Of a stretch of 64,000 bases of DNA, positions 43,114 through 57,572 are shown in pieces. Under the pieces are notes generated by a model that worked only from the letters and a program-made list of their open reading frames with translations, had not been told where the DNA came from and did not search any database. Source of the DNA: Gammaproteobacteria bacterium (GTDB lineage: Bacteria; Pseudomonadota; Gammaproteobacteria; Natronospirales; REEB76); NCBI GenBank assembly GCA_035279405.1, contig DATEHU010000026.1:258147-322146 (forward strand). Direction: 5' to 3'. Made by a program: the position numbers and the translations under genes. Every line of letters begins with the position of its first letter. Within the stretch, counting starts at the first letter, position 1.

Positions 43114-45138
43114 TCAGTGCAAGGTTCCGCCTCCGGAGCTGTGGGAGCGTACGGCTTTCACGTCGTTGGCGGTGACCGGCTTGCCGTGATTACCCCACGA
43201 CGTGCGTTCGTGATTGATGATGTCGGCGATTTGCGTGTCATTGAGCACGCTGGCGAAGGGTGGCATTGGAGTTGGATAAGTCCGACCGCCGATGTTACGA
43301 CCGTGTGCACCACGCAGAATCGTTTTGATCTGCTCCTCCGGATCCGGGTTCAGCACGACGGGGTCGTCCTTGAGTGGCGGGAACGCCCCCGGCAAACCCA
43401 TGCCGGTGGCTTGATGGCAGGCGGCACAGTTGGCTGAGTAGAGTGAAGCACCTTGGGTCGCATCGTATTTGTAGGGACCGGCAGGTTCGAGAGCGGCCGC
43501 GGGCGCGCTGGCGACGGTTTGTGGGGTAACGGGCGAGGCTACGCTCACCGGGGCTGGCAGCGGGGCGGCGCCGGGTGCATGCACTTCAAAAACACCTATT
43601 GCGCCAATCATGGCGTGCGCCATATCGTGGTCCACGAAGGCATACTTGCCCGGTTCCGGGATCACCAGATCGAAAACGGCGCCCGCGCCCGGCCCTACGC
43701 TGTAGGTGGACACGCCGCTCAAGGCGTGCGCGGCATCACCGTCTGGATAGATCTTGTCGAACATCGCGCCGATCACGTGGAATGAGCTCCACAAGTCTGG
43801 GCCGGCGTCCACGAAATAGATGCGCACGCGCTCACCCGCTGTGACTGGCAGCGGATGATCTTTATATTGAAACGCCGCGCCGTTGAACACCACTTCGTCG
43901 GGGCGTTCCTGCAGCATCTTCTCGTAATCCGGACCCATAAGGTGGCCGGAAACCTGCTGGGTGTACCACTCGCTCTGTACGATCACGTAACTTTCGGCAG
44001 CCGGTGGCAACGGCGTGGCCGGATCCACGACGATGGCGCCGTACATGCCACTGCCGATGTGCAACAACACGGGCGGTGTGCCGCAGTGGTACAGGAACAC
44101 ACCGGGGGTGTTCGCCACGAACGAGAACTTGATGCTTTTGCCCGGATCCACGTCCACGTAGTGCAGGCTGGGCGGCGTGATCGCGGCGTGAAAATCTATG
44201 GAGTGCGGCATCGTGCCATGGTTGGTGAAAGTCACGTCGACCGTCTGGCCCTGGCGCACGTGGATGACGGGGCCGGGAACAGTACCACCGTAAGTCCATG
44301 CCATATAGGCAACGCCGCTGGCAATGGCAACCTTGTCGTCGGTCGTCACCAAATCAACATTGACGCTGTCGCCGGTAGCGTAGAGCGATGGCAGGCGGGC
44401 ATCGCGCGTGGTGGCAATCGGCGTGCTCGATGCGAGCGCCAGCGGTGAAACCGCCGCCGCAGCCGCCGCAGGCGAGGGCGACTTGACGTTGAACGCGCTA
44501 TGCAATCCGAGAAGCAGGAGTACAAGCAGCACTACAATCCCGGCCATAGCCGGGACCTGCACACGCCACGGGAGTGCCATGCGCGCACGTGGGCGGGTCG
44601 TGTCACGGCTCCACTCGGTAACCAGTTGCCACTTTGGCCAGCGACGTTCGATAAGGTAATCGAGGCTATAGGGAATAAACCCCGCTCGGTAGTCGAGGCC
44701 AATTAAAGCCACGAAGATCAGTACGTAGCTGATCGCCGTACCCATGTTGGCCGCGCCTACTATGTAAGGGCCGCCAAATCCTTCGGCCGTGCTCCACACC
44801 GCCAAACTGAACAGCGCCCCCAGCACGTAAAGGGTTCGGCGCCCAAAACCGACCAGCAGCGCGAACGCCAGCAAAGTCTCGATGATGCGTGTGGCCCAAA
44901 TAAACAAGCCTGCATTGGGCGTGACCACGGCAATCCACAGGTGGAACCAGCCGGCCGACCAGCCCGGCTGTCCCTGGGCTGCGTTGTGCAAGTAACCGAC
45001 GTAGTGAAGTGCGAAGTCGGGCGACCAGGTGAGCGCTGCGCCCAATGCCCAAATGATGCCAAAGGCGACGCGCAGCGCCGTAGTGGCTATGGCCGGCCAG
45101 GTTGCGATGAAGCGGTCGTGAGGATCTGTATCCGACAT
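43114..45138 (-). CDS. nirK: Copper nitrite reductase fused to DoxX-like and cytochrome c domains
   Basis: Predicted membrane-bound nitrite reductase (nitrite to NO), 674 residues in three parts. Residues 15-165 are a four-helix DoxX/DoxD-like membrane domain, followed by another helix near 197-215. Residues 245-520 are the two cupredoxin domains of NirK. Type 1 copper ligands are His312, Cys352, His360 and Met365; type 2 ligands are His317, His351 and His504; the catalytic pair is Asp315 and His454. Residues 555-665 are a class I cytochrome c with CAACH at 571-575 and a likely Met ligand at 625. GGAG eight bases upstream supports the ATG at 45138. The pseudoazurin at 48166 or the fused haem could deliver electrons. 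Confidence 0.9.
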   Translation of the reverse strand: MSDTDPHDRFIATWPAIATTALRVAFGIIWALGAALTWSPDFALHYVGYLHNAAQGQPGWSAGWFHLWIAVVTPNAGLFIWATRIIETLLAFALLVGFGRRTLYVLGALFSLAVWSTAEGFGGPYIVGAANMGTAISYVLIFVALIGLDYRAGFIPYSLDYLIERRWPKWQLVTEWSRDTTRPRARMALPWRVQVPAMAGIVVLLVLLLLGLHSAFNVKSPSPAAAAAAVSPLALASSTPIATTRDARLPSLYATGDSVNVDLVTTDDKVAIASGVAYMAWTYGGTVPGPVIHVRQGQTVDVTFTNHGTMPHSIDFHAAITPPSLHYVDVDPGKSIKFSFVANTPGVFLYHCGTPPVLLHIGSGMYGAIVVDPATPLPPAAESYVIVQSEWYTQQVSGHLMGPDYEKMLQERPDEVVFNGAAFQYKDHPLPVTAGERVRIYFVDAGPDLWSSFHVIGAMFDKIYPDGDAAHALSGVSTYSVGPGAGAVFDLVIPEPGKYAFVDHDMAHAMIGAIGVFEVHAPGAAPLPAPVSVASPVTPQTVASAPAAALEPAGPYKYDATQGASLYSANCAACHQATGMGLPGAFPPLKDDPVVLNPDPEEQIKTILRGAHGRNIGGRTYPTPMPPFASVLNDTQIADIINHERTSWGNHGKPVTANDVKAVRSHSSGGGTLH

Positions 45139-45388: not shown

Positions 45389-45402
45389 CTGATTTGGATC
45401 AA
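45389..45402. promoter_or_regulatory. FNR/Dnr-type box, one mismatch
   Basis: CTGAT-TTGG-ATCAA differs from TTGAT-N4-ATCAA by one base. It lies 251 bp upstream of the nirK fusion and is its only candidate site on that side. Confidence 0.5.
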
Positions 45403-45543: not shown

Positions 45544-45557
45544 TTGATATAGATCAA
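45544..45557. promoter_or_regulatory. FNR/Dnr-type box upstream of the CopD-like gene
   Basis: Perfect TTGAT-ATAG-ATCAA. Its centre is 57 bp upstream of the ATG at 45608, which leaves room for a class II promoter with a short leader. Confidence 0.75.
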
Positions 45558-45607
45558 TGCGGTTCCCCGGCGCGACGCGGCAGACTCCCGATGCAAGGAG
45601 CGTTGAG

Positions 45608-46072
45608 ATGGCCGATGTTGCGGTTGCCCTGGTTGTGCACGTGCTGTCCGTGGTGTGGTGGATTGGGAGCCTGGCGTTCATCACGGCGGTGTTTCTGCCT
45701 TTGCTGCACAAGGCCCAGCTTGGGGATGCACAGACGGCTTTTCACGTGGTCGAAGGCCGCTTCGAACCGCAGGCGCGCATTGCCGTGGTGTTGGTGGGCC
45801 TGTCCGGCATTTACCTGTTGTTCCGCCTGAATCTCTGGTCCATGTTCCTGCAGGCCCGATTCTGGTGGCTGGACGCCATGGCCCTGTACTGGCTGCTGTT
45901 CATGCTGCTGTTGTTCGTGCTTGGACCCACAGGCTTGCTGCGACACATCATGCGCCGTGGCGGCGATGACGTGGCGCGCTGGCGCCGCATGCAGCGCGTG
46001 CATCTGGGGTTGCTGGTGATCGCGCTGGTAATCATCGCCGGCGCGGTGTCCGGCAGTCACGGCTTCGGATGA
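45608..46072 (+). CDS. CopD-like four-helix membrane protein
   Basis: Membrane protein of 154 residues with four hydrophobic helices (about 5-27, 56-75, 83-108 and 130-150). The pattern HVLSVVWWIGSLAFITAVFLPLL with a histidine in helix 1 and a later RxHLGLLVIA resembles CopD/YcnJ-type and related haem- or copper-binding membrane proteins. AAGGAG lies seven bases before the ATG. It overlaps the hemerythrin gene by 4 bases and is preceded by a perfect TTGAT box, so it probably belongs to the anaerobic regulon. Confidence 0.75.
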   Translation: MADVAVALVVHVLSVVWWIGSLAFITAVFLPLLHKAQLGDAQTAFHVVEGRFEPQARIAVVLVGLSGIYLLFRLNLWSMFLQARFWWLDAMALYWLLFMLLLFVLGPTGLLRHIMRRGGDDVARWRRMQRVHLGLLVIALVIIAGAVSGSHGFG

Positions 46073-46572
46073 GAGACATGCTGGATTTCGATCCCTTCAG
46101 CGCGTTGGTCGACGAGCACGAGATGCTCACCCAGCTGTTCGCGCGCCACCAGGTCGCGCTCATTGCGCGCGCGTGGGCACGCGCAGCACGCCTGCTGGAT
46201 TCGCACCAGAAACGGCTGGCGCAGCATATCGAACTGGAAGAACGATACCTCTTGCCCTATTGCCCGCAGGACAAACTGCCGAATCAGTGGCCGGCACGGG
46301 TTTATTCCGTGGAACATCAGCGCATTCAGGAGCTGGCGAGCAAGCTGAATGCGCGCTTTGCCAAACTGCGCCGCCGCGGCGTCACCAGCGCAGCGCTGAT
46401 TGCGCTGCTCGATGAGGAAAAGACTCTGAAACATATCCTCGAACATCATCACGCACGCGAGGAGATGGCATTGTTCGCGACCTTGCCTCAGATGCTGTCC
46501 GAGCCGCAGCGCGACGCGCTGGCGCATGCGCCCAGACAATTCCCCGGCTTGCAGGCCAACGGCGCCCGCTAG
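46069..46572 (+). CDS. Hemerythrin-like domain protein
   Basis: Protein of 167 residues predicted to be a four-helix di-iron protein. Candidate ligands are in DEHEML, HQKRLAQHIELEERYL, SVEHQRIQE and ILEHHHAREEMALF, spaced as in hemerythrin cation-binding domains. Relatives (YtfE/DnrN-like or bacterio-hemerythrin) take part in NO or oxygen handling and Fe-S repair, but the N-terminal domain of YtfE is absent. The ATG overlaps the upstream stop (ATGA). It converges with the regulator gene, with a 4-bp overlap. Confidence 0.85.
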   Translation: MRDMLDFDPFSALVDEHEMLTQLFARHQVALIARAWARAARLLDSHQKRLAQHIELEERYLLPYCPQDKLPNQWPARVYSVEHQRIQELASKLNARFAKLRRRGVTSAALIALLDEEKTLKHILEHHHAREEMALFATLPQMLSEPQRDALAHAPRQFPGLQANGAR

Positions 46573-47255
46573 TGCACGTGCCGGCGTAATGCCTCGGTGT
46601 CCGGGATCGTGACACGATCCTCGGCAATTTCGATCAAGCCTTCGTCGTTGAGCGCACGCAGCGTGCGTGACAGGGTTTCCGGCGTGACCGCCACGTGCGC
46701 GGCGATCAGCATCTTGCGCGCCGGCAAGGTCACGCTGACGCGGCCGTGCTCGCCGCGCGGCACGAGGCCCAGCAGGTAATGCACCACGCGATACCGGCTG
46801 TTTTCGAGCGTCAAAGCCTCGATCTCGTCCCAATGCGCCTGGATACGCTGGGTCATCTGCGCCATCACCGCCCGGCAGGTGGCGAACGATTCCTGCAGGA
46901 TGTCAAGAAAGGCAGCGCATTCGAACGCCACAAGTTCGCCGGCTTCGACGCCGGCGCCGTGCACCGGATAGCGCGGCGTGTCCATGAACATCACACTCTC
47001 GGCGAAAGTCTGCGGCGGGCGGATGAAACGCATGATTTTTTCGTGGCCGCCCGGTGACAGCCGGTAGAGCTTGACGCTGCCCTGGCGCAGCAAGAAGAAG
47101 CTCGCCGCTTCGTCGCCGTGGCTGAACAGCTGCTCGCCGGCCGCAAACGGACGCAGTGCGGCATGCGCAAGCACACGCGCACGCTGCACGTCGCTCAGCG
47201 CCGAGAACAGATAATGGTGGCGAAGTTCGCGCGCCAGTGTGTCATCGGATTGCAT
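46569..47255 (-). CDS. dnr: Crp/Fnr regulator of the Dnr type
   Basis: Transcription regulator of 228 residues. A cyclic-nucleotide-binding-like sensor domain (AGEQLFSHGDEAASFFLLRQGSVKLYRLS) and a long dimer helix precede the helix-turn-helix. The recognition helix TPETLSRTLRAL keeps the Glu, Ser and Arg that FNR uses to read TTGAT. The N-terminal cysteine cluster of FNR is missing, so it is more like Dnr/NnrR NO-sensing proteins. The ATG at 47255 is chosen; 103 extra residues upstream are not protein-like. Likely controller of the boxes listed in this region. Confidence 0.9.
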   Translation of the reverse strand: MQSDDTLARELRHHYLFSALSDVQRARVLAHAALRPFAAGEQLFSHGDEAASFFLLRQGSVKLYRLSPGGHEKIMRFIRPPQTFAESVMFMDTPRYPVHGAGVEAGELVAFECAAFLDILQESFATCRAVMAQMTQRIQAHWDEIEALTLENSRYRVVHYLLGLVPRGEHGRVSVTLPARKMLIAAHVAVTPETLSRTLRALNDEGLIEIAEDRVTIPDTEALRRHVH

Positions 47256-47294
47256 GCGATTCCCGCAGTAATTTCGTGTGCCGCCATGCCAGCC

Positions 47295-48165: not shown

Positions 48166-48609
48166 ATGAACAGCAAAATTGCTTTGGGCATATTGCTGGC
48201 TACATCCCTGATCGCGGTCAACGCCCATGCCAAGGACTATACGGTGAAGGAATTGAACAACGGCGCGGACGGGACCTTCGTTTTTGAACCGGACTTCCTG
48301 CACCTCCAGCCGGGAGATTCCGTGCATTTCGTGGCCGCGGATGCCGGTCACGACAGCCAGTCCTACCTGGTGCCCAAGGGTGCTGCGGGCTGGAAGAGCG
48401 AGGTCAGCCAGGACATCAGCGTGAAATTCACGCATCCGGGTGTGTACCTTTACGAGTGTAACCCCCACCATTTGTTCGGCATGCTGGGCGTGATAGAGGT
48501 AGGCAAGGCGACCAACAAAGAGGCAGCCGAGAAGGTCGCCGCGGCCATGGAGGCGCAGCAACTGATGAACAAGGGCCGGCTTGAGAAGCTGATGAAAGAC
48601 GTGAGATAA
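48166..48609 (+). CDS. Pseudoazurin-type cupredoxin
   Basis: Periplasmic type 1 copper protein of 147 residues with a signal peptide (1-22, ending AHA). Copper ligands are His in AGHDSQS and the cluster YECNPHHLFGMLGVI (Cys, His, Met), the arrangement of pseudoazurins. Pseudoazurins donate electrons to NirK-type nitrite reductases, and one is encoded 3 kb away. A C-terminal helical extension (about 25 residues) is longer than usual. It precedes the cbb3-like oxidase genes by 35 bp and could be transcribed with them. Confidence 0.92.
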   Translation: MNSKIALGILLATSLIAVNAHAKDYTVKELNNGADGTFVFEPDFLHLQPGDSVHFVAADAGHDSQSYLVPKGAAGWKSEVSQDISVKFTHPGVYLYECNPHHLFGMLGVIEVGKATNKEAAEKVAAAMEAQQLMNKGRLEKLMKDVR

Positions 48610-48644: not shown

Positions 48645-50054
48645 ATGCAAGCGATGGTCACGTCTTCGTCGTCGGGGCTGACGGCGGCGGATGAAGGGGC
48701 GCTGCGTACCGTTTTCAACGTGTACACCTTGTGCGCGGCGCTGTGGCTGGTGTTTGCCACTTTCATCGGCATCGTGCTGGCGTTCAAGTTCGTGTATCCG
48801 GAGTTCTGGGCGCACGCGGGCTGGCTTACCTTCGGGCGGCTGCGGCCGATTCACACCAATGACACGTTTTATGCCTGGGCGAGCATCGGGCTCGTGGGCC
48901 TGGCCTATTACATTGCGGCGCGCAGCTCGAGGGCGCGCCTGTACAGCGCCAAGCTCGCCTGGGTGGGACTCGCGCTGTTCAACATTGCCGCCATTGCCGG
49001 TACGGTGACGCTGGATCTGGGCATCAACGACGGCACGCTCGAATACCGCGAGTGGGTGTGGCCGATCCGCCTGGTGTTCCTGGCGGCGCTGGTGGTGACC
49101 GCGTGGAATCTCATCGCGACCGTGGCGCGACGCAATACCAAGGACATTTATCTTTCCAACTGGTACACCATCGGCGGGGTGCTGTGGACCTGCATCATTG
49201 CCATCGTGGTCATCATTCCCTGGTACCAGTACGGGCTCGGGCAGGTAGCGGTCTCCGGCTTTTTCATGCACAACGCCGTGGGCTTGTGGTTCACGCCCAT
49301 GGCGCTCGGGGTTTTGTATTACGCCATTCCCAAGCTCTTCAGCCGCCCGATTTATTCCTACGCACTTGGAGTGTTCGCGTTCTGGACCAATCTGATTTTC
49401 TATCCGATCATCGGCTCGCATCATTTCCTGTTCAGCCCGCTGCCGTGGTGGTTGCAGACCATCGCCATCGTGTTCTCGGTGGCGATGCTGGTGCCGGTGT
49501 GGGCGGGCAGCGCGAATTACCTGCTCACCATGCGCGGGCGCCCGCAACGCCTGTACCGCTCGCCCGCGATGTTCGTGCTGGTGGGCGTGCTCGGCTATTT
49601 CATCGGCTCGAGTCAGGGCACGGCCGAGGCCTTCCGCTCGCTGCAGGAAGTCTGGCATCTCACCAACTTCACCGTCGGTCATTCGCACCTCACGATGTAC
49701 GGGTTCATCACCTTCGTCATCTGGGGCGGGGTGTACGGGCTTCTGCCGCGCATCACCGGCAAGCAGGCCAACAACCTGCTCATGGGCATCCATTTCTGGT
49801 GGGCCACGATCGGCATGATCATCTATGTGCTGGCGCTCTCGATCGGAGGCACGATTCAGGGACTCGATTGGATACACGGCCTGCCGTTCATTGATTCGGT
49901 GGTGAACATGGGGCCGTACTGGATGTGGCGCGCCATCGGCGGCAGCATGATGTTTGCGAGCCATTTGCTGTTCCTGTGGAACGTCTGGGTCATGACCTAT
50001 GGGAAGCGACAACCCAAGGCGTTCGCCGTGGCGACTACCGAGGCGGCTGCATGA
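48645..50054 (+). CDS. ccoN: cbb3-type cytochrome oxidase subunit I (CcoN)
   Basis: Haem-copper oxidase catalytic subunit of 469 residues with about 12 helices. Ligands read from the sequence are His70 (low-spin haem, RPIHTN), His209 (CuB, MHNAVGLW), His259-His260 (CuB, IGSHH) and His346/His348 (haems, VGHSHLT). Tyr253 is six residues before His259, where cbb3 oxidases have the cross-linked tyrosine, so oxygen reduction rather than NO reduction is favoured. GGGGAG supports the ATG. Its stop overlaps the next gene as ATGA. Confidence 0.93.
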   Translation: MQAMVTSSSSGLTAADEGALRTVFNVYTLCAALWLVFATFIGIVLAFKFVYPEFWAHAGWLTFGRLRPIHTNDTFYAWASIGLVGLAYYIAARSSRARLYSAKLAWVGLALFNIAAIAGTVTLDLGINDGTLEYREWVWPIRLVFLAALVVTAWNLIATVARRNTKDIYLSNWYTIGGVLWTCIIAIVVIIPWYQYGLGQVAVSGFFMHNAVGLWFTPMALGVLYYAIPKLFSRPIYSYALGVFAFWTNLIFYPIIGSHHFLFSPLPWWLQTIAIVFSVAMLVPVWAGSANYLLTMRGRPQRLYRSPAMFVLVGVLGYFIGSSQGTAEAFRSLQEVWHLTNFTVGHSHLTMYGFITFVIWGGVYGLLPRITGKQANNLLMGIHFWWATIGMIIYVLALSIGGTIQGLDWIHGLPFIDSVVNMGPYWMWRAIGGSMMFASHLLFLWNVWVMTYGKRQPKAFAVATTEAAA

Positions 50055-51001
50055 AAGCGCTCATCCTGATCGCCGGCGGCTCGACGCTGGTGTACGCGAT
50101 ACTCGCGGTACTGATGGGCGTGCTGCCGGGCATCGAGCTGTCGAAGACTCCGCCTGGCCCGGGCGTGGAACCCCTGACCGCGCTCGAAGCCGAAGGCCGC
50201 GATGTGTATGTCGCCAACGGTTGCAGCTACTGTCACACGCAGCAGGTGCGGCCGCTGGCCGAGGACCGGGTGTTCGGCCGGCCGATCTCGGCCGGCGATT
50301 TGGCCTATCAGACGCCGGAGTTGCTCGGTTCGGAACGCAACGGTCCGGATCTTTCCAACATCGGCAACCGCCAGCCGAGCAAGGTCTGGCAGTACATGCA
50401 TCTGTACGATCCGCGCTCGGTGCAGCCGCTGTCCATCATGCCGGATTTCAGTTTTCTGTTTCGCGTGGTGTCCGAGGCGCCATCCGGCGTCACCACGATC
50501 CCGGTGCCCAAGCCCTATGCTCCGGCGCAGGGCCTCGTGATTCCCACGCACAAGGCGGTCGCGCTGGTGGCCTATCTCCTGTCGCTCAAGCAGCCGCCGA
50601 TTCCCGGTTATGTACCGCCGGCCGCACCGGCCGCGGGCGGTGCGCCGGCAGCCGCGCCAGCGTTTGATGCAACCGAAGGCGCGCAACTGTTCTCGCAAAA
50701 CTGCGCGGTCTGCCATCAGGCGAACGGCGAGGGCATTGCCGGTGTGTTCCCGCCCCTCAAGGGTAACGCGGTGGTGCTGGCGGCCGATCCCACGCAGCAG
50801 ATTCACGTGATTCTGGAAGGCCTGCAAGGCGCCAATGTGGGTGGCACCGTGTATCCGGGCCAGATGCCGTCCTTCAAATCAGTACTGAGTGACAGCCAGA
50901 TCGCCAACATCATTGACCACGAACGTACTTCGTGGGGGAATAACGCACCGCTCGCCACGCCGACCGAAGTCGCGGCGCAGCGTGCCAAACTGAAACACTA
51001 G
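50051..51001 (+). CDS. CcoO fused to a cytochrome c domain
   Basis: Membrane-anchored dihaem protein of 316 residues. An N-terminal anchor (about 4-27) and the CcoO domain follow: NGCSYCHTQQVRPL with CSYCH at 58-62, NGPDLSNIGNR, and Met130 as possible axial ligand. A proline/alanine linker (183-203) leads to a second class I cytochrome c with CAVCH at 218-222 and Met272. The second domain closely resembles the C-terminal cytochrome of the nitrite reductase fusion. No separate CcoP was found, so this protein may serve as both subunits. Translation is coupled to ccoN. Confidence 0.9.
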   Translation: MKALILIAGGSTLVYAILAVLMGVLPGIELSKTPPGPGVEPLTALEAEGRDVYVANGCSYCHTQQVRPLAEDRVFGRPISAGDLAYQTPELLGSERNGPDLSNIGNRQPSKVWQYMHLYDPRSVQPLSIMPDFSFLFRVVSEAPSGVTTIPVPKPYAPAQGLVIPTHKAVALVAYLLSLKQPPIPGYVPPAAPAAGGAPAAAPAFDATEGAQLFSQNCAVCHQANGEGIAGVFPPLKGNAVVLAADPTQQIHVILEGLQGANVGGTVYPGQMPSFKSVLSDSQIANIIDHERTSWGNNAPLATPTEVAAQRAKLKH

Positions 51002-52474: not shown

Positions 52475-53635
52475 CTAGTTCAGCCGCGGTGCGAACATCA
52501 CCGGCAGAAAACGCAGGAAATAAATCGCAAAGGCCAATGCCCAGAGCACGCCCGCGATGGGTAACAGCCCGGGCGTGTTGATCAGGCGCAGTATCGCCGC
52601 CACGCTCACCAGCGCGAACGCCGTAGCCATGAACGGGCCGGCGGCCATTGCATGTCCGGTGTGGCCGAGCGCCACGCGCGTCATCATGCCGATGGAGAGC
52701 GAGCCGAGCGCGCCTACGGTGATGGCGTGCAACGCGGTGATTTCGGGAAGTGCGGAGGAGAGCAGTGCGACGCCGCGCAACGCAAGTCCCGCCGCCAGCC
52801 ATAAATAACCCAGGTGAAGTACCCACAGCATCGGCTCGCGCCAGGTTTTCCACGGTTGCCACAGCCACCCGCGCAGCAATACCAGCAGTGCCATTGCCAC
52901 CGATACTGCACCCAGCGTCATGGAAGCTGGCAGCAAAATATCGAGCAATACCAGTACCGCCGCGCCGGCATTCACGCTCCAGTCCAGCCAGCGGTAACGC
53001 CGCACCGTAGTGTTGCTCAAGCGCCGTGACGTGAAGAACGGAATCACGCGTCCACCGATGCTGAGCATCAATACCGTGAACAGGTCGATCACCCAGTACA
53101 GCACGCTGCGTTCCGCCACGTGGATCATGTCGGCGACGCTGAGATGAAACGTCACGTCCGCGAGCGTGAACGCCGACAGCAGCCCGATCACGAAATAATT
53201 GCGGCGGTTGCGGCTCTTGAGGATCGGTCGCGCCACCATGAGCAGCAGCAGGCCGAAGAACGCGCAGTCCAGGAATGCCGTGAGCGCGTAAGGTACGCGT
53301 GCGGGCAGCAGGAACAGCACGCGTGCCGCGATCCATACCGCTACCAGCAACAGCAGTGACTTGGGCGTGAACGTCGGCAGTTTGGTCCATTCGGCCACGG
53401 CCGTGAGCAGGAACCCCGCCACCAGCGCACCCGCGAAACCGAACAGCAATTCGTGACCGTGCCACGCGAGCGGCGGCAGGGAACTGGCCGGCAACCATCC
53501 GAGGTGCAGGAACAGCGCCCAGGTGAAAATGCCGAGCGAAGCCGCGAGCGCGGCACACAGGAACAGCGGCCGGAACGGTTGCTGCAGGATGGGCTTTGCG
53601 CTCACGCTGCGCGCGGCAGGGGCGGGGATACTCAC
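52475..53635 (-). CDS. nnrS: NnrS-family haem-copper membrane protein
   Basis: Integral membrane protein of 386 residues with about 12 helices. NnrS proteins hold haem and copper and protect cells during NO stress. Seen are the N-terminal QPFRPLFLCAALAA, WHGHELLFGFAGALVAGFLLTAV and ALHAITVGALGSLSIGMMTRVALGHTGH, all NnrS signatures with their histidines. The GTG at 53635 overlaps the pncB stop as GTGA, and AGGAAGG lies upstream. A shadow frame (52398-53663) is not coding. Confidence 0.93.
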   Translation of the reverse strand: MSIPAPAARSVSAKPILQQPFRPLFLCAALAASLGIFTWALFLHLGWLPASSLPPLAWHGHELLFGFAGALVAGFLLTAVAEWTKLPTFTPKSLLLLVAVWIAARVLFLLPARVPYALTAFLDCAFFGLLLLMVARPILKSRNRRNYFVIGLLSAFTLADVTFHLSVADMIHVAERSVLYWVIDLFTVLMLSIGGRVIPFFTSRRLSNTTVRRYRWLDWSVNAGAAVLVLLDILLPASMTLGAVSVAMALLVLLRGWLWQPWKTWREPMLWVLHLGYLWLAAGLALRGVALLSSALPEITALHAITVGALGSLSIGMMTRVALGHTGHAMAAGPFMATAFALVSVAAILRLINTPGLLPIAGVLWALAFAIYFLRFLPVMFAPRLN

Positions 53636-54792
53636 GCGGCGAAAACCTTCCTGAGATAGGCAAGATAACCGGGGTCGGTGCACAGGGTCTTGGCGGGATC
53701 GTCGCTGATCTTGGCCACGGCCTGCCCGTTGCAGCGCGTCATTTTAATGATCATGTCGGGCGGCGCAAAGCCCATGTCATTGCTGAGGTGCGTGCCGATC
53801 CCGAAGCCCAGGCGCACGCGGGCGTGAAAACGTTCGAAGATGCGCAGTGCCTTGGCGAAGTCCAGCGCATCGGTGAATACCAACATCCTGGTCAACGGGT
53901 CAACGCGCATTGCGTGGTAATGCTCCAGCATCTTTTCACCCCACGCAAATGGGTCGCCGGAATCGTGACGCACACCGTCGAACAGCTCGCAGAAGTACAG
54001 GTCGAAGTCCCGCAGGAAAGCCGCCAGTCCGATGACGTCGCTGAGCGCGATGCCGAGATCTCCGCGGTACTCCTGCTCCCAGCTTTCGAGCGCGAAGCGC
54101 TTGCTGTCAACGAGCCGCGGTCCCAGCGCCTGGCAGGCCTGCAGGAACTCGTGGCCCATGGTACCAATGGGAGTCAGGCCCAGCTCTTTGGCCAGCAGCA
54201 CGTTGCTGGTACCGGCGAGATTTACGGGCAGCGCGGCGGCCAGGCGCTGCACCACGCTGCGCTGCCAGTCGCGCGCGTAGCGCCGGCGGGTGCCGAACTC
54301 GCTGAAGCGGAATGCCGCATGCCCGGGATGAGCGCGCAGCAGCGCGATCTTCGCCTCCAGGCGGGCGCGGCCTTCCTCCAGGGTGTGCGCGTCACGCCGG
54401 GACTCGGCGTACACCTCGCTCAGGATCGCGAGCACCGGCACTTCGAACAGGATGGTGTGCAGCCACGGACCGCGGATCACGATTTCCAGAGCACCGTTCT
54501 CGATGCTCACGCTGACGTGGTCCTGCTGCAGCTGGAAGATGCGCAGGATGTCGACGAAATCCTTTTTCATGTAGCGCAGGTTGCGCAGGTAGGCGAGCTC
54601 CTGCGGCGTGAACCGCAGGCGACAGAGCGCGACGATCTCGTCACGGATGCGCGCCGCGTGTGCGGCGAGCTTGCCGGGTGCGTTGCGGCAGCGGAAGCGG
54701 TATTCGACTTCGGCGGCCGGAAAGCGGTGCAACACCGCCTGCATCATCGTGAGCTTGTAGAGATCGGTGTCGAGCAGCGATTCGATGATCAT
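53632..54792 (-). CDS. pncB: Nicotinate phosphoribosyltransferase
   Basis: NAD salvage enzyme that joins nicotinate to PRPP, 386 residues. Features are LLDTDLYKLTMMQAVLHRFPAAEVEYRFRCRN at the N-terminus (shown in part by the family pattern), the phosphorylated-His region in TPIGTMGHEFLQ, and TDALDFAKAL and RLGFGIGTHLSND near the C-terminus. Its stop overlaps the nnrS start, so the two are translationally coupled. A TTGAT box lies 27 bp before its ATG, too close for class II activation of pncB itself. Confidence 0.95.
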   Translation of the reverse strand: MIIESLLDTDLYKLTMMQAVLHRFPAAEVEYRFRCRNAPGKLAAHAARIRDEIVALCRLRFTPQELAYLRNLRYMKKDFVDILRIFQLQQDHVSVSIENGALEIVIRGPWLHTILFEVPVLAILSEVYAESRRDAHTLEEGRARLEAKIALLRAHPGHAAFRFSEFGTRRRYARDWQRSVVQRLAAALPVNLAGTSNVLLAKELGLTPIGTMGHEFLQACQALGPRLVDSKRFALESWEQEYRGDLGIALSDVIGLAAFLRDFDLYFCELFDGVRHDSGDPFAWGEKMLEHYHAMRVDPLTRMLVFTDALDFAKALRIFERFHARVRLGFGIGTHLSNDMGFAPPDMIIKMTRCNGQAVAKISDDPAKTLCTDPGYLAYLRKVFAA

Positions 54793-56120: not shown

Positions 56121-56141
56121 GGCGTGCGGGGACGGCGAGTA

Positions 56142-57572
56142 ATGATAAGCAACCGTCTGTCACGCTGGACACTGGTGTTCTTTGCCTGTGCATTGGTGAA
56201 TTTCCTGGCCGCGCAGGGCGTGATTCTTTCCGGTGCAAGCTGGCCTATGCAGCCGGTATCCGCGCCCGGCACGCTGGTGGCGGTGCACTTGCTCACCATC
56301 GGCTGGCTGCTGCTGCTGATGTTGGGTGCGTTGTTCCAGTTCATCCCGGTAATTACATCGAATGTGTTGCCGAGCCAGCACCTGGAGCTGGCGACGCTGG
56401 GCGCCATCGAAGCCGGTTTGTTGCTCATGATCTGCGGATTCATCGGCATGGGTTTGGGTGCGGCGCCGATCGTCCGTTGCCTGCCGGTCGGCGGCGCTCT
56501 GGTCATCGCCGGCGTGCTGCTGGCCTGTTACGACCTCGGCGTGCCGCTCCTCAAGGCGCGACCGCTGACCTTGCCGGGCCGCATGGTACTCACCGGCCTG
56601 GTGTTTCTGCTTGCCACGATCACACTCGGGCTGCTGTTTGCGCTCGCCATCAGCGTTCCGGCGTTGTCGGGGCGCTTGGGCGTGCTGCTGGCTAATGGCG
56701 TCAGCTTGCATGCGCTCGCGGGCCTGGGTGGCTGGTTCACGCTCACGGCCATGGGGGTGACCTACAAGCTCGTGCCGATGTTCACGCTCGCACCCGAGGA
56801 GCGCGGCTTGGCCGGCGAACTGGTGCATGACCTCGCGGCCGTGGGGTTTGCCTTGGCGCTGATTTTCGGCCTGCTGCACATCTGGTTGCCATCGCGCGTA
56901 CTGCAGGGCGTGGAATACGCCGGATACCTGCTGGTTGCAGCGGGCATCGGCATTTATCTCTGGGACATGGCGCGTATTTATCGCACGCGCCGGCGCACGG
57001 TGCTCGAGCTGCACAACAAGGCAGCAGTGGGCGCGTTCGCACTGCTCGGAGCCTGCGTGGTGATGGCGCTGGTGCTGGCCGGATTGGGGAGGTTGGCCAG
57101 CGATGCGGCGGTCTTCGTGTTCCTGGCGGTATTCGGCTGGCTGAGCGGACTGGGGCTCACGCAGCTTTACAAGATTGTGCCGTTTCTGGCCTGGCTTGGC
57201 CGCTTCGGCCAGAAGCTCGGGCGCGGGCCGGTGCCGCGCGTGCAGGATCTCGTGAACGAAGGCCGCGGCTATCCGTGGTTCATCATTTATTTCATCGGCA
57301 TATCGCTGGCCGTACTCGCGGCCTTCAGCGGCGAGTTCTATGTTTTCCGCGCCGGTATCGGGCTGGGCGTGATCGCCACGCTCGGGCTGATGCTCGAGTA
57401 CTGGCGCGCCTGGCGCGGCTATTACGCGGCGCGCAAGCCGCAGGTTGCGCCGAAGCTGCCGCCTTTCATGACCGGAATACCGGCGGTCGCCAATCCGCAC
57501 GCGGCCAAAGGACCGGCCATGATCTCCCCCATTACAGACAAATATGGAGCCTCACACGATGAGCATCCTTGA
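56142..57572 (+). CDS. 12-helix membrane protein, haem-copper oxidase I-like
   Basis: Integral membrane protein of 476 residues with about 12 helices and a cytosolic C-terminal tail. Histidines lie within helices in positions reminiscent of the haem-copper oxidase subunit I and NnrS families (LVAVHLLTIGWLL, VSLHALAGLGGWFTLTAMG, LLHIWLP). A CuB-type HH pair is not visible, so it is unlikely to be an oxidase. Its neighbours are a Rieske protein and DUF2249 proteins. A role in NO or haem chemistry is a guess from context. Confidence 0.75.
   Translation: MISNRLSRWTLVFFACALVNFLAAQGVILSGASWPMQPVSAPGTLVAVHLLTIGWLLLLMLGALFQFIPVITSNVLPSQHLELATLGAIEAGLLLMICGFIGMGLGAAPIVRCLPVGGALVIAGVLLACYDLGVPLLKARPLTLPGRMVLTGLVFLLATITLGLLFALAISVPALSGRLGVLLANGVSLHALAGLGGWFTLTAMGVTYKLVPMFTLAPEERGLAGELVHDLAAVGFALALIFGLLHIWLPSRVLQGVEYAGYLLVAAGIGIYLWDMARIYRTRRRTVLELHNKAAVGAFALLGACVVMALVLAGLGRLASDAAVFVFLAVFGWLSGLGLTQLYKIVPFLAWLGRFGQKLGRGPVPRVQDLVNEGRGYPWFIIYFIGISLAVLAAFSGEFYVFRAGIGLGVIATLGLMLEYWRAWRGYYAARKPQVAPKLPPFMTGIPAVANPHAAKGPAMISPITDKYGASHDEHP

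Follow-up and report, generated by a model that had tools for sequence, protein, structure and literature searches.

A single gammaproteobacterial gene joins a polytopic membrane domain to a complete copper nitrite reductase (NirK) and a cytochrome c, and the recurrence of this arrangement in other genomes points to an apparently undescribed design of the enzyme. The gene lies within a 64-kb stretch of DNA, here called the window. Its product opens with a four-helix membrane domain (the N-domain) and a further, fifth helix; a complete NirK core follows, and the chain closes with a cytochrome c that carries the haem motif CAACH (Table 1). NirKs with cytochrome or cupredoxin extensions are well known (PMC13324648), and a NirS nitrite reductase with extra domains has been described from Chloroflexi (PMC8756737). 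Among the extended NirKs that we found described, the additions are soluble domains or a lipid anchor (PMC13324648; PMC3475470), from which the polytopic module differs. A first-pass annotation of this DNA knew of no described enzyme with a DoxX-like membrane part, and in our own search of the open-access literature we likewise found no description of a NirK whose extra domain is polytopic or DoxX-like. The fusion makes direct electron supply from the membrane to NirK testable with one protein, and it provides a first functional setting for an unnamed family of DoxX-like domains.

Table 1. The fusion gene, its parts and neighbouring features, with positions in the 64-kb window.
Feature	Position	Strand	Basis
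DoxX-like/NirK/cytochrome c fusion gene, 674 aa	43114..45138	-	Open frame; full-length homologues at 92% and 71%
C-terminal monohaem cytochrome c (CAACH), residues 556-648	43195..43473	-	PF00034/PF13442; identity; tree
NirK core, residues 258-520, all type 1 and type 2 copper ligands	43579..44367	-	TIGR02376; PDB alignment; tree
Fifth transmembrane helix, residues 191-216, after K/R-rich loop	44491..44568	-	Hydropathy; positive-inside pattern
Four-helix DoxX-superfamily-like N-domain, residues 14-150	44689..45099	-	Hydropathy; PF07681 matches of family; hhalign
Fnr/Dnr-type box with one mismatch, 264 bases before nirK (-264 in L039 too)	45389..45402	+	
Perfect Fnr/Dnr-type box between nirK and CopD-like gene	45544..45557	+	Exact-palindrome count
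Weakly CopD-like membrane protein, divergent neighbour	45557..46072	+	PF05425 3.9e-5, below cut-off
Hemerythrin-domain protein	46069..46572	+	PF01814 1.6e-9
Crp/Fnr-family regulator, candidate NO/anoxia regulator of cluster	46569..47261	-	PF00027, PF13545
Pseudoazurin, candidate electron donor	48166..48609	+	TIGR02375 4.4e-32, above cut-off
CcoN-like haem-copper oxidase subunit I	48645..50054	+	PF00115 6.6e-78; sequence
CcoO-like subunit fused to cytochrome c related to nirK tail	50036..51001	+	PF02433 1.4e-33; tree
NnrS, protein of NO-responsive denitrification clusters	52475..53683	-	PF05940 9.7e-102
Six exact Fnr/Dnr-type boxes	30589, 45544, 47295, 54819, 55730, 61960		Five between 45 and 62 kb

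The gene is a single frame from ATG to stop with zero internal stops, and several stops occur on the opposite (plus) strand across the same interval. The same three-part protein is encoded in a second MAG of the Gammaproteobacteria (REEB188, locus L039), with 92% identity, and in a Beijerinckiaceae MAG (FW106-10 bin 28, locus L040), with 71% identity over residues 1-665. A fourth case, found with the N-domain as query in a genome of another gammaproteobacterial family (G276), has the membrane domain and NirK without the cytochrome. This gene is cut at the end of its contig, and contig C94 begins with the remainder; from their overlap of 55 exact bases we infer that they are one gene. The joined protein has 523 residues and ends directly after the NirK core, and this version is therefore without a cytochrome. 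The fusion thus extends over four genomes from at least three families and two classes, among about 1,470 genomes searched in total with differing queries; all four are multi-contig drafts, two of them MAGs by record. These searches bear out the single three-part protein proposed by the first-pass annotation, the full domain order being present in two other genomes and the membrane domain with NirK in a fourth. That separate genes were joined by misassembly or a frameshift found no support and can be dismissed even for a window genome in 59 contigs, since the full-length protein is conserved in independent assemblies and all of its folded parts are under purifying selection. The recurrence of the same fusion in four genomes argues in the same way for a real design.

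Rates of change along the protein indicate where selection acts. For the genes of the window and L039, dN/dS comes to 0.07 in the N-domain, 0.09 in NirK, 0.17 in the cytochrome, and 0.26-0.41 in the linkers; values for the N-domain range over 0.07-0.10, similar to those of the NirK core, and those for the folded domains overall over 0.07-0.18. Identities with L040 are 77% in the N-domain, 82% in NirK, 62% in the cytochrome, and 56% in the loop and fifth helix, and with G276 the N-domain (73%) exceeds NirK (67%). Across the L040 and G276 comparisons the loop and fifth helix reach 50-56%, below the N-domain. Because the N-domain is conserved like the core and the linkers are less so, the four-helix part is constrained as a functional domain, beyond a role in anchoring.

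The flanks of the gene in L040 are wholly different, with a dxs-like gene, an FAD-linked oxidase, and a molybdopterin gene of the nitrate-reductase type, and the fusion gene has therefore probably moved between proteobacterial classes, unless the L040 contig is misbinned. No N-domain relatives were found in viral contigs. Among plasmids, 568 records match the fusion query, none of them over >80% of its length, and in the plasmid matches listed every best place begins at residue 240 or later. Within the genus of the window genome, the DoxX-like fusion is present in 2 of the 11 genomes searched, and four congener loci (L014, L015, L017, and L018) encode another kind of NirK, extended at the N-terminus by a cupredoxin domain; on this basis, one type of NirK seems to take another's place among members of the genus. 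These Hyphomicrobium-type enzymes are extended NirKs too, but their extra domain is a soluble cupredoxin and not a membrane domain, and they belong to a separate clade.

The NirK core matches TIGR02376 at 1.3e-58, and its 198.9 bits do not reach the equivalog cut-off of 296.3, a threshold that assigns names and is not a functional feature. Its best solved relative is the Ralstonia-type haem-CuNiR, matched over residues 259-666 (2e-75). Alignment with PDB 6qpv places the type 1 copper ligands at H312, C352, H360, and M365 and the type 2 ligands at H317, H351, and H504, and the catalytic D315 and H454 are also present. All of these residues are invariant in the homologues, and the G276 protein has them too. 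The complete ligand set read in the first-pass annotation is confirmed in this way, and the fusion protein is predicted to be a dissimilatory copper nitrite reductase. A phylogeny of 42 NirK cores places the four DoxX-like fusions in a single clade on a long stem (support 100/99), to which neither the cytochrome fusions of Ralstonia type nor the NirKs with N-terminal cupredoxin domains belong; within this clade G276, without the cytochrome, branches first.

The C-terminal part is also as first described, a cytochrome c (PF00034 at 2.6e-10 over residues 560-643) with CAACH at 571-575 and an invariant M625 that is the likely axial ligand. The comparison first made, with NirKs of the Ralstonia pickettii type, did not hold for the tail. 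The tail has 57% identity to the CcoO-fused cytochrome encoded 5 kb away, against 33-38% to Ralstonia-type tails, and the fusion tails also join this neighbour in a cytochrome tree (support 92/91), which rules out a Ralstonia-type origin. The layout is nonetheless comparable: RpNiR of Ralstonia pickettii and PhNiR of Pseudoalteromonas likewise carry a monohaem cytochrome c at the C-terminus, joined to the NirK core by a linker of ~35 residues (PMC13324648), and the window protein keeps all of the copper ligands of these three-domain haem-CuNiRs. RpNiR and PhNiR differ in having no membrane domain, a core in another clade, and a cytochrome tail of different origin. The simplest history would be that the DoxX-like domain and NirK were joined first and that the tail was added later from the oxidase-fused cytochrome family; alternatively, G276 may have lost its tail.

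Hydropathy places hydrophobic segments of the N-terminal region at about residues 14-37, 76-96, 102-121, 128-148, and 193-213, and the loop between the fourth and fifth (149-192) is rich in K and R, with nine such residues. This agrees with the four helices of the DoxX-type fold predicted for the N-domain. By the positive-inside rule, the N-terminus and loop would be cytoplasmic and the NirK and cytochrome c parts periplasmic. AlphaFold models made with three-row alignments (pLDDT 34 for the full chain and 48 for residues 1-225) were too poor for fold assignment, probably because so few sequences went into them, and the zero matches at E < 0.001 that Foldseek returned for this 1-225 model are evidence neither way.

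The first-pass annotation described the N-terminus as DoxX/DoxD-like. DoxX (PF07681) and DoxD (PF04173) are themselves four-helix membrane domains. The N-domain on its own gave nothing convincing in Pfam (neither DoxX nor DoxD/TQO), NCBIfam, or the PDB, and compared directly with PF07681 it had no match at E up to 10, nor at 1. Its family, however, provides evidence of a remote kinship. The family is rare (present in 8 of 369 genomes sampled from the class and in 4 of 398 from the phylum) and elsewhere consists mostly of standalone proteins of ~320-330 residues with two tandem copies, which are also carried by congeners of the window genome; a single-copy protein in G600 has 168 residues. When scanned singly, 5 of 15 members match PF07681, with a best E of 2e-4, and this is the sole recurrent match. 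In hhalign comparisons with DoxX proteins of related genomes, the family scored 56% over 44 columns, a larger alignment from the 31 members gathered reached 50% (108 collinear columns), and the fusion rows by themselves 51% (107 collinear columns); profiles that were reversed or shuffled by column stayed at 2% or less, as did five unrelated membrane proteins or families. The core shared with DoxX is the E-rich motif E-x6-LL-x-G of helices 2 and 3, which in the window protein runs from E87 to G97. With DoxD of thiosulfate:quinone oxidoreductase (TQO) the family scored 1-6%, compared with 98% for DoxD against DoxX, and no PF04173 match was found in the fusion gene by a search that detects DoxD in congeners. 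DoxDA-like genes were not found in the window genome and are present in several congeners. From the PF07681 matches and profile comparisons we regard the N-domain, with moderate confidence, as a remote member of the DoxX superfamily, and membership of DoxD/TQO is ruled out. The DoxX-like reading therefore stands as a distant relationship seen through the family, and the appeal to DoxD as quinone-linked kin falls away. The domain matches neither Pfam entry, and it is joined to NirK, whereas DoxD of TQO is joined to DoxA.

NnrS and Fnr/Dnr boxes are known marks of clusters for NO-responsive nitrite respiration, and by analogy the window locus has the layout of such a cluster. Exact TTGAT-N4-ATCAA palindromes occur six times in the 64 kb, compared with 0.01 expected, and the five boxes between 45 and 62 kb appear to mark a regulon around the nitrite and NO genes. 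Further genes of the cluster encode a ferredoxin and DUF2249 proteins, and farther out ccmB stands beside an ABC ATPase. In the CcoN-like protein a Tyr is retained six positions ahead of the His-His pair, the cbb3 pattern. Three haem-copper oxidase subunits I are clearly recognisable in the genome: one is aa3-like, one is that of the window, and the third lacks the active-site Tyr. This third subunit (G000:C21:2012-3340, L119) has Asn where B-type oxidases have Tyr and its gene overlaps a SCO1/SenC gene; by analogy, it is a candidate sNOR-type NO reductase. The genome also encodes the cytochrome b of a bc1 complex.

Together, these observations lead us to favour, on balance and with some reserve, a membrane-tethered NirK that would be fed by pseudoazurin or a cytochrome c through its haem and copper and whose DoxX-like part would serve to dock or assemble the trimer. 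The fifth helix would export the rest of the chain, and a NirK trimer, as in other NirKs, would stand on the outer face of the inner membrane. Electrons would pass from the bc1 branch to pseudoazurin or a cytochrome c, to the haem of the tail, and to the type 1 copper, and nitrite would be reduced to NO at the type 2 copper. Most likely, the DoxX-like part would dock or assemble the trimer beside membrane partners, for instance a donor complex or an NO-consuming enzyme, and expression would probably be switched by the neighbouring Crp/Fnr regulator. A docking or assembly role is suggested because one helix suffices for anchoring and yet the four-helix domain is strongly conserved, too much so for a mere anchor, as if a specific function were required of it. 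The copper ligands and haem motif, the occurrence in four genomes, the four helices plus one, the NO cluster, bc1, and the NO-reductase-like oxidase with SCO1 are all in favour of this tethered enzyme; the position of the fusion gene apart from an NO cluster in L040 and the poor structure predictions for the N-domain speak against it, as does the strength with which the four-helix domain is conserved, since the specific function that this calls for is named here but not explained.

A different role for the membrane part, which develops the suggestion in the first-pass annotation of electrons taken straight from the quinone pool, would make the protein a quinol:nitrite oxidoreductase. The DoxX-like domain would bind quinol in the membrane and bypass bc1 by feeding the type 1 copper or the haem of the tail; this is possible though unlikely. 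The N-domain is the constant partner of the fusion NirK clade, even in G276 where the cytochrome is absent, and along with its strong conservation, H45, E87, R84, R100, and several W and Y residues are invariant among the four fusions. However, no ligand set for haem, Fe-S, or flavin is visible in its sequence, which has no Cys and few His, of which H45 alone is invariant across the family alignment, and the genome has the ordinary donor route of bc1 and pseudoazurin. To our knowledge, DoxX proteins in general are not quinone enzymes. TQO, which contains the DoxX-superfamily subunit DoxD, is quinone-linked and reduces decylubiquinone (PMC6335251), but kinship of the N-domain with DoxD was not detectable. 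Menaquinol and cytochrome c are discussed as donors for other NirKs held at the membrane, namely that of Bacillus azotoformans and further putative lipoproteins, and direct or indirect use of menaquinol as well as cytochrome c has been proposed for the B. azotoformans enzyme (PMC3475470); its anchor is a predicted lipid, and that of the window NirK a polytopic domain. If extended to a self-contained quinol:nitrite oxidoreductase for bc1-independent, membrane-bound nitrite respiration, with the cytochrome as a later, optional addition, the proposal would be slightly less likely.

Instead of docking or electron transfer, the N-domain might serve in copper loading or folding, or in membrane handling of the NO product. 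The weakly CopD-like gene adjoins nirK, and one two-copy relative, L070, shares an operon-like run of genes with a multicopper oxidase and is near a gene with heavy-metal-associated domains. This role is distinctly improbable, given that no Cys/Met/His-rich metal site is seen in the N-domain and that other two-copy relatives adjoin unrelated genes.

Several minor observations concern the family and the locus. The family loci L035, L036, L037, L038, L066-L071, and L112-L114 encode mostly two tandem copies in ~325 aa, and L037 sits after a PQQ-like beta-propeller gene. The CcoN- and CcoO-like genes at 48645-51001, with pseudoazurin just before them, encode an unusual cbb3-like oxidase inside the NO cluster; its CcoN-like protein scores 250.9 bits, far below the ccoN cut-off of 583, and keeps the active-site Tyr pattern. 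Adjoining the DUF2249 genes of the cluster, positions 56124-57572 encode a polytopic membrane protein of 482 aa that has no Pfam match and, by eye, vaguely resembles a haem-copper oxidase or an NnrS-type protein.
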